From positions 1-64,000 of the forward strand of contig JAENYD010000005.1 in the NCBI GenBank assembly GCA_016842005.1: 64,000 nucleotides of DNA, written 5' to 3'. The stretch is from Clostridium thermobutyricum. GTDB lineage: Bacteria; Bacillota; Clostridia; Ch29. Both the position numbers and the translations under genes were made by a program. Under the pieces are notes generated by a model that was not told the origin of the DNA, did no database searches, and saw only the letters and a program-made list of their open reading frames with translations. Numbering within the stretch: position 1 is the first letter of the stretch; each line of letters begins with the position of its first letter. Shown here one piece after another: positions 16,613-51,832 of this stretch.

Positions 16613-17398
16613 ATGAGCCACACTGTACTGGAAAAAATGAGAAAGATAAACAAGATACTGCAAAGACAGGCAAACCGCCCTATTAATTTCTATGAGCTGA
16701 GCAGTGTCCTTAGTAAAATTCTCTATGCCAATATATATGTGGTCGGTACAAACGGTCATGTGCTCGGTTTCGGCCTGACAGAAGGTTACAACTGCAATGT
16801 GGTGGTGGAAGAAATCCTTGAAGGGAAAAAGCTCCCCGAAAAATTAAATCAGGAACTGCTTGATGTACAGGAAACCAAAGTGAATGTCATAAACAATGAA
16901 CATGACTGCATTATAGATTCTGATATTCGCTGCCCTTACAGTGAAAGGTATAATGTATTTATACCTATAAACGGAGGCGGAGAGAGGCTGGGAACTCTGA
17001 TCCTGTCGAGGTCCCATGACGAATTCAATGATGAGGATGTTGTCCTGGGTGAACACAGTGCCACCGTGGTAGCCCTTGAGATACTGTATTCGGTAAGTCA
17101 TAAGAAAGAGGAAGAGGCAAGGGAAAAGGCAGTTGTCCAGATGGCCATAGGCACCCTCTCATACTCTGAACTGGAGGCAATGGAGCATATTTTCAGAGAA
17201 TTAAACGGAAAAGAGGGACTGCTGGTAGCCAGCAAGATTGCCGACAGGGTAGGAATAACCCGTTCGGTTATTGTAAATGCCCTCAGGAAATTCGAGAGCG
17301 CCGGTGTTATTGAGTCCAGGTCACTGGGTATGAAAGGGACATACATCAAGGTTTTGAACAACAAACTCATTGATGAACTGAAAAAATTCAGAACGTGA
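16613..17398 (+). CDS. codY: GTP/BCAA-sensing repressor CodY
   Basis: N-terminal GAF-like region; C-terminal winged HTH KIADRVGITRSVIVNALRKFESAGVIESRSLGMKGTYIKV. Confidence 0.97.
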   Translation: MSHTVLEKMRKINKILQRQANRPINFYELSSVLSKILYANIYVVGTNGHVLGFGLTEGYNCNVVVEEILEGKKLPEKLNQELLDVQETKVNVINNEHDCIIDSDIRCPYSERYNVFIPINGGGERLGTLILSRSHDEFNDEDVVLGEHSATVVALEILYSVSHKKEEEAREKAVVQMAIGTLSYSELEAMEHIFRELNGKEGLLVASKIADRVGITRSVIVNALRKFESAGVIESRSLGMKGTYIKVLNNKLIDELKKFRT

Positions 17399-17429: not shown

Positions 17430-17458
17430 GGAGGATTATGTTAAGATTTGTAGAATTC
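17430..17458 (+). promoter_or_regulatory. Candidate sigma-H-type promoter upstream of the riboswitch
   Basis: GGAGGATTA (17430-17438), 11 nt spacer, GTAGAATTC (17450-17458); fits RnAGGAwww-N11/12-RnnGAATww except the last position. Confidence 0.4.
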
Positions 17459-17473
17459 TAAAAATAATGAAAT

Positions 17474-17565
17474 CCGATAAGGGCAAACCCATCTAAAGAT
17501 GGGGACGCAAAGCCACGGGCCTAAGGAGGTTAATGACTACCACTATGGCAGCCGGGTTGCCGGAA
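17474..17565 (+). ncRNA. Cyclic di-GMP-I (GEMM-I) riboswitch aptamer
   Basis: AGGGCAAACCC-ATCTAAAGAT-GGGGACGCAAAGCC-ACGGGCCTAA...GGCAGCCGGGTTGCC matches GEMM-I conserved core; P1 UCCG (17474-17477)/CGGA (17562-17565). Confidence 0.93.
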
Positions 17566-17582
17566 AGAAGGCTTATTATTTG

Positions 17583-17619
17583 CTGCTTCGCCGGTTATCG
17601 CGGCGATGCAGTTTTTTTT
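17583..17619 (+). terminator. Riboswitch expression-platform intrinsic terminator
   Basis: CTGCTTCGCCG (17583-17593)/CGGCGATGCAG (17601-17611), one T-T mismatch, then 8 T. Confidence 0.9.
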
Positions 17620-17702
17620 GGCTTCTGGGGGCATATACATCCATATAGACCTAAATCTGCTGCTGATTAAAAAAATCGAATAATTTGCTTAACCTTGAAG
17701 GA

Positions 17703-17747
17703 AATTGGCAATTATTATCGAAATATTAAAAGATAATCCGGCCAATT
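17703..17747 (+). other. Second stem-loop in the flgB 5' UTR
   Basis: AATTGGC (17703-17709)/GCCAATT (17741-17747) with inner ATTATC (17714-17719)/GATAAT (17732-17737). Confidence 0.45.
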
Positions 17748-17796: not shown

Positions 17797-18204
17797 ATGA
17801 AAGGAGAGTTAAACAGTATTTCCATACTGAGAAAGGCGCTGGATGCTGCATGGCTCAGAAATCAGGCAATCTCCAATAATATATCCAATGTGGATACGCC
17901 TAATTACAAGGCCTACAGAGTGAAGTTTGAAGATATGTTGAAGGATGCCGTGGAAAACAGAAGTATTCAGGGATACAGAACAAACAAGAAGCATATTCCT
18001 GTTGGAGGCGGCAGACTGGACAACGTTAAACCGGTGGTTTCACGGGTAAACAATACCAGTACCCGGGAAGACGGAAATAATGTAGATATAGATACTGAAA
18101 TGGCCAACCTGGTTAAAAATAATATTATGTACCAGGCACTGGCAGACCAGATATCCGGGAAATTTGAAAGGCTCAAGAATGTTATTAATGGAGGCGGGAG
18201 GTAG
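17797..18204 (+). CDS. flgB: Flagellar basal-body rod protein FlgB
   Basis: AISNNISNVDTPNYKAYRVKFEDML; first gene of flg/fli cluster. Confidence 0.96.
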   Translation: MKGELNSISILRKALDAAWLRNQAISNNISNVDTPNYKAYRVKFEDMLKDAVENRSIQGYRTNKKHIPVGGGRLDNVKPVVSRVNNTSTREDGNNVDIDTEMANLVKNNIMYQALADQISGKFERLKNVINGGGR

Positions 18205-46205: not shown

Positions 46206-46976
46206 ATGGAGATTGAGAGAGTTTGGCAACAGTACAAGAAAACAGGCGAACAGCAGGAAAGGAACATTCTTATAGAAAACTACATAGATCTCGTGAAGAT
46301 AACTGCAGGCCGTCTGAAGAGTACTCTCACCGCCAGCAATGTGGAGATGGATGATTTAATCAGTTATGGAATTATCGGGCTAATGGATGCCATAGAAAAA
46401 TTCGATATAAATAAAAATGTGAAGTTTGAAACTTATGCTCAGTTGAGGATCAGGGGTGCCATGATTGACCAGCTCAGAAAATATGACTGGGTCCCCCGGT
46501 CATTGAGGCAGAAATCCAAGGATATTGACCAAGCATACAGGTCATTGGAGAGCAGACTGGGCAGAAGTCCCAGTGACCATGAAATGGCTTCTGAATTAGG
46601 GATTGATGTTGATGAATACCAGGACCTGCTGGGACAGATAAGTGCTCTGTCAATGGTATCACTGGAGGAAATGCTGGATAACAGAATGGAGAGCAAAATT
46701 GCTGCCGGGGATAAATCCGGTAGCGGACAGCCGGAAAAGCATGCAGAAATTAAAGAAATGAAAAGAATCCTGCATAGCAGTATTGACAGCCTTCCATACA
46801 GGGAAAAACTGATTATTTCACTTTATTATTACGACGAGCTTACCTACAAAGAAATCGGGAGAATTATAGGGGTATCCGAGTCCCGGGTGTCTCAATTACA
46901 TAGCAAAGCCGTAATGAAGCTGAAACATAATCTTTCAAAACATGAATCGGATTTGATGATAGAAGGAGGTGGATAA
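46206..46976 (+). CDS. sigD: Flagellar sigma factor SigD/FliA (WhiG family)
   Basis: DLISYGIIGLMDAIEKFD, FETYAQLRIRGAMIDQLRKYDWVPRSLRQK, ELTYKEIGRIIGVSESRVSQLHSKA. Confidence 0.97.
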   Translation: MEIERVWQQYKKTGEQQERNILIENYIDLVKITAGRLKSTLTASNVEMDDLISYGIIGLMDAIEKFDINKNVKFETYAQLRIRGAMIDQLRKYDWVPRSLRQKSKDIDQAYRSLESRLGRSPSDHEMASELGIDVDEYQDLLGQISALSMVSLEEMLDNRMESKIAAGDKSGSGQPEKHAEIKEMKRILHSSIDSLPYREKLIISLYYYDELTYKEIGRIIGVSESRVSQLHSKAVMKLKHNLSKHESDLMIEGGG

Positions 46977-51790: not shown

Positions 51791-51832
51791 AAAATAGAGG
51801 ATTTCACGACGGGGGATAGAATTATCTTTTAG

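Follow-up and report, generated by a model that had tools for sequence, protein, structure and literature searches.

How much of the transcription of a flagellar operon can be controlled by one riboswitch placed in front of it? The question is raised by a stretch of 64,000 nucleotides of Clostridium thermobutyricum (hereafter the window), which contains a long fla/che gene run on the + strand. The run opens with flgB (17797-18204; TIGR01396, 116 bits against a cut-off of 59) and continues at 18210-50045 with flgC, fliE, fliF, fliG, fliI, flgE, a motB-like gene, flhA and the gene of a FliA/WhiG sigma factor (46206-46976); ten of its genes were named by family search, and a single transcript of about 32 kb is assumed. 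Upstream, on the same strand, lies codY (16613-17398), recognized by its translation, with codY relatives at 53-63% identity. In the original prediction, a c-di-GMP-I (GEMM-I) riboswitch of the OFF type located between the two genes was proposed to silence the whole transcript. That such a riboswitch before flgB is already known in Clostridioides difficile was also stated there and is confirmed by the literature, in which Cd1 is described as an OFF switch acting by termination before flgB (PMC6366702, PMC3649979).

The aptamer is readily recognized. Rfam cmscan finds one RNA family at gathering score in the window, with an aptamer on the + strand at 17473-17565 (covariance-model matches span 17472/17473 to 17564/17565). 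The match to RF01051 (c-di-GMP-I) reaches 84.2 bits (E = 3.7e-17) against a gathering score of 35 bits, covers all 87 positions and is far above chance level, which bears out both the presence of a GEMM-I riboswitch before the flagellar locus and the covariance-model check proposed for it. Each of the six genomes of the source organism's family has the riboswitch immediately 5' of flgB; these genomes are related, and conservation among them does not amount to six independent events. Vc2 residue numbers were carried over to the window by us, and the ligand-contact residues G20, A47 and C92 (PMC4744006) are canonical, being G17482, A17509 and C17560. When folded alone, the aptamer shows P1, P2 and P3 all present at -31.2 kcal/mol. 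It departs from the RF01051 consensus in its P2 tetraloop, the expected docking partner of P3, which reads UAAA in place of the GAAA that is usual, and not defining, for the class (relatives carry CAAA, GAAA or AAAA), and in its long P3 loop; both features are within the range of the family's 37 copies. The same aptamer passes the cut-off of RF03167, known as c-di-GMP-I-GGC (72.4 bits, E = 3.4e-15; cut-off 59), and cmscan puts this family top by E-value. The name GGC presumably refers to the position of Vc2 A47. It is nevertheless very improbable that the aptamer is a GGC variant, perhaps sensing another ligand, and membership was rejected: the RF03167 consensus GACGCGAAG aligns with GACGCAAAG of the window, where A17509 stands in place of the consensus G, the bit score of RF01051 is the higher, and all three contact residues are canonical. 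Judged by its sequence, the window aptamer is a canonical c-di-GMP-I aptamer, for which ligand binding is predicted.

Within the expression platform, the strong intrinsic terminator (17583-17619, + strand; stem C17583-G17611 followed by eight T at 17612-17619) lies where it was originally placed, as do CTTC (17586-17589) and CCGG (17591-17594) in its 5' arm. The P1 strands, the aptamer-side CCGG and GAAG had each been placed one position too high; the corrected positions are UCCG 17473-17476 and CGGA 17561-17564 for the two strands of P1, 17560-17563 for CCGG and 17567-17570 for GAAG. The strand CCGGA (17560-17564) thus comprises C92 and the 3' strand of P1, and its CCGG doubles as an antiterminator strand which, together with GAAG, captures the segment CTTCGCCGG (17586-17594) of the terminator 5' arm. 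Partial transcripts were folded in the ligand-free state using ViennaRNA. P1 is retained in transcripts as far as 17570; at about 17573 it gives way to an early competitor at 17559-17572, a hairpin of GCC (17559-17561) and GGC (17570-17572) that was absent from the original prediction. In transcripts ending at 17594-17605, pairing of the aptamer-side CCGG with CCGG 17591-17594 has a probability of 0.7-0.95 and P1 one of at most about 0.003; the CCGG strand exchanges its P1 partner for the terminator 5' arm, and the proposed mutual exclusion of P1 and antiterminator is upheld. As for the details of the proposed antiterminator, the CCGG helix exists as described, and the exact inner helix of GAAG and CTTC is one of two alternatives of nearly equal energy, some 1 kcal/mol less favourable than the best. 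At 17601 the antiterminator beats P1 by about 7 kcal/mol, and from 17609 the terminator is dominant.

The logic of the switch follows from this topology. P1 and the terminator have no base in common and can form in the same RNA; the antiterminator is incompatible with either of them. The platform is therefore of the OFF type as first proposed, an arrangement that is kept before flgB in the six genomes. The class does have an ON member, namely Cdi1_1 of C. difficile, which is induced by c-di-GMP (PMC3649979), yet an ON switch is highly unlikely here, because P1 is compatible with the terminator, and it is the alternative fold that melts P1 and keeps the terminator from forming. The completed terminator prevails at equilibrium whether ligand is present or not; a purely thermodynamic switch was rejected for this reason, and control must be kinetic, exerted during RNA synthesis. 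The advantage of the antiterminator over P1 at 17601 further implies that the ligand has either to intervene at an early stage or to be bound with very high affinity, and GEMM riboswitches are reported to be picomolar binders (PMC7288161). A plausible course of events is that in the absence of ligand P1 would open at about 17573 through the GCC/GGC hairpin, CCGG would engage the 5' arm of the terminator once about 17594 is reached, and the polymerase would read through. When ligand is bound, P1 and C92 would be locked, the terminator arm would remain free, and transcription would stop at about 17612-17619.

The antiterminator of one sequence proves little, since 8.5% of shuffled linker-plus-5'-arm sequences reach P(AT) >= 0.9 and so match the window; taken alone it was rejected as proof. 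Among the six flgB orthologs, the stage at which the P1 strand serves as antiterminator is seen in four and not in L018 and L021, where the strongest pairing uses the 3' strand of P3. The six orthologs all retain CCGG in the terminator 5' arm; their CCGGA strand, common to P1 and the antiterminator, does not vary, in contrast to its P1 5' partner. When riboswitches and terminators were exchanged among the family's 31 pairs, native combinations paired better than exchanged ones (35 of 20000 permutations), and the same comparison in an 18-copy non-redundant subset gives p = 0.034.

The genomic setting of the riboswitch is less distinctive than it was thought to be. Its placement directly after codY had been called specific to this locus, a claim which did not survive comparison and was rejected as a novelty. 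An Rfam scan covered 40 codY loci; flgB adjoins codY in 19 of them, and the order codY-riboswitch-flgB recurs in another member of the family (L071) as well as outside it in a Bacillota MAG (L081) and a Symbiobacterium-like MAG (L084). The codY-flgB order is common in the Bacillota loci scanned, and the position of codY is therefore shared context and not special. Riboswitches of this class also occur in other settings. In genome G034, a c-di-GMP-I riboswitch (L032:589-676) lies on the flgB strand downstream of flgB and directly before a gene that we take, from its translation, to be fliF, which would put the riboswitch inside the flagellar operon. The aptamers L084:3894-3984, located between codY and flgB, and L155:597-704 have A at Vc2 G20 (AAAAGCAAACC and AAATAGCAAACC, respectively), and this G20A change has been reported to allow cGAMP binding (PMC7288161). 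The source genome holds six c-di-GMP-I copies and five GGDEF domains. One of its riboswitches (L004:1501-1592; G000:C21:155226) is followed by a gene that has a PAS-like region and, about 2 kb farther along, by a GGDEF domain in a 1084-aa open frame, an arrangement in which feedback on c-di-GMP synthesis is possible. Elsewhere in the same genome (G000:C7:1435-16508), AGGATTTAATCGCACCAGAGTGGAAT is found many times on one strand and is probably a CRISPR repeat.

What the original prediction missed is that the riboswitch is flanked by two sigma-H-type promoter sites. Sites were searched with the pattern RNAGGAWWW-N11-RNNGAAT, a spacer of 11-12 being admitted for membership; the consensus boxes of sigma-H are RNAGGAWWW and RNNGAATWW (PMC8510167). 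The upstream site, P-A (17430-17458, + strand), reads GGAGGATTA-N11-GTAGAATTC and is a strict match, the pattern itself covering GGAGGATTA-N11-GTAGAATT; transcription from it would be expected to start at about 17464-17467. The second site, P-B (17697-17725, + strand; GAAGGAAAT-N11-ATCGAAATA), lies downstream of the terminator and is one letter off in the window, with GAAA for the consensus GAAT that the other five genomes carry. A counterpart of P-A with spacing 11 is present in all six genomes of the family, and so is a counterpart of P-B, beyond the terminator and 66-100 bases before flgB (in L018 with spacing 10). Each of the six flgB regions thus carries two sites, against 0.006-0.02 sites expected per region from shuffles. 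In G002 the first site is retained even though a repeat stands between it and the aptamer. At L017 it is a palindromic repeat (GGGGACATTCCGC...GTGTCCCC) that separates the upstream sigma-H-type site from the aptamer, and similar repeats are found near the riboswitches of L067 and L070. The GGAGGA before the aptamer resembles a ribosome site but fits a sigma-H -35 box; a mini-ORF, MLRFVEF* (17439-17462), was rejected on two grounds: its GGAGGA coincides with the P-A -35 box, and of four relatives retaining that box three have no ATG behind it.

Sigma-H (Spo0H) promoters of Bacillota have the same boxes at a constant spacing of 11, and a sigH gene is present (TIGR02859, 382.9 bits; cut-off 294.8). 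The strict motif occurs at 52 places genome-wide against 5 for the reversed pattern, approximately a tenfold excess. It precedes dnaG (two sites) and a spoIID-like gene, both of which we named from their translations rather than by family search, and versions with one mismatch and the same spacing precede spo0A and spoVS. What sets the sites studied here apart from known sigma-H promoters is their location ahead of a c-di-GMP riboswitch and the fla/che genes. In the window, one further strict site (51796-51823) lies 24 bases before a pyrH-like gene. At four of the six riboswitches of the genome (L001, L002, L004 and L006) the aptamer is closely preceded by a sigma-H-type site, with spacing 11 (12 in L006). 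For the family as a whole, strict sites at most 110 bases upstream accompany 11 of 37 riboswitches against 0.085 expected, and 5 of 31 against 0.065 expected when the flgB copies are excluded. Outside the family, a sigma-H-type site lies within 260 bases of flgB, on its 5' side, at 10 of 60 loci (L024, L031, L032, L035, L078, L084, L086, L108, L109 and L128), where 0.3 would be expected.

The conserved sites may of course serve another factor, in which case P-A would be a sigma-A extended -10 promoter or its -10 part would be a Spo0A box (TGTCGAA-like). Some relatives carry TGCTAAAAT or TGATAGAAT just downstream of the pre-aptamer site, and P-A may in some of them be of the sigma-A extended -10 type; many genomic -10 boxes read TGTCGAAT, and the TCGAA in many of them resembles the Spo0A box. 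Such a reading is unlikely, as it leaves unexplained the AGGA box at constant spacing 11 and its enrichment over the reversed pattern, and the canonical sigma-H genes carry the AGGA box as well. A literature search of open-licence papers found nothing on point that treats sigma-H control of fla/che in combination with c-di-GMP riboswitches.

Taking both sites into account, we consider it probable, on the grounds of sequence comparison, that this is a co-transcriptional c-di-GMP OFF riboswitch with P-A upstream and a second sigma-H-type promoter producing flgB transcripts that are blind to c-di-GMP. On the + strand, the terminator scan found nothing resembling a terminator in the interval from codY to the aptamer, and the riboswitch may therefore gate read-through from codY in addition to transcripts from P-A; these two are most likely what it gates, with riboswitch RNA starting at P-A and in part entering from codY. 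P-B, beyond the terminator, would make flgB transcripts without the riboswitch, which c-di-GMP could not stop. If P-B works, it bypasses the riboswitch, and to say that c-di-GMP silences the transcript of about 32 kb would be too strong: the OFF logic of that claim is supported, and its whole-operon scope, which ignored the conserved P-B, would have to be qualified, since part of the transcription may escape. The alternative is that the riboswitch, like its C. difficile counterpart, is the sole gate and shuts down the entire fla/che transcript, P-B being inactive or serving some other purpose. The flgB gene of C. difficile has one leader of 496 bases with a riboswitch (PMC7438776, PMC3649979), and P-B of the window deviates from the consensus by one letter, which lends this alternative some credit. 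We still find it rather doubtful, given that P-B is kept at a similar place before flgB in all six genomes and that sigma-H-type sites precede flgB so much more often than expected in the loci outside the family. Under the two-promoter reading, flagellar transcription would be the sum of a part gated by c-di-GMP and a part blind to it, both tied to a transition-phase and sporulation sigma factor.

The locus shares with Cd1 (Cdi1_3) of C. difficile the aptamer class, the long leader 5' of flgB and the OFF control by intrinsic termination, and in both organisms a flagellar sigma factor is encoded inside the operon. The window differs in having codY as the upstream neighbour and in the sigma-H-type sites that flank the riboswitch, the second one beyond the terminator. 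SigH of C. difficile has been reported to modulate motility negatively (PMC3865298), so that sigma-H-type promoters on fla/che, if they are real, would constitute a difference in wiring, with a positive role of SigH here against a negative one there. The riboswitch itself is a known design confirmed in a new family, and the more useful point is the conserved pair of sigma-H-type sites. It also cautions against assuming that a riboswitch in front of an operon governs every transcript of that operon. Whether fla/che in this family has two SigH entry points, one passing through an OFF riboswitch and one beyond it, giving a floor blind to c-di-GMP and a gated part on top, with positive SigH-type control that may be wider in Bacillota, is in our judgement an evenly balanced proposition. 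The paired sites would offer a simple account of how a spore-former combines a developmental sigma factor and c-di-GMP at one operon.
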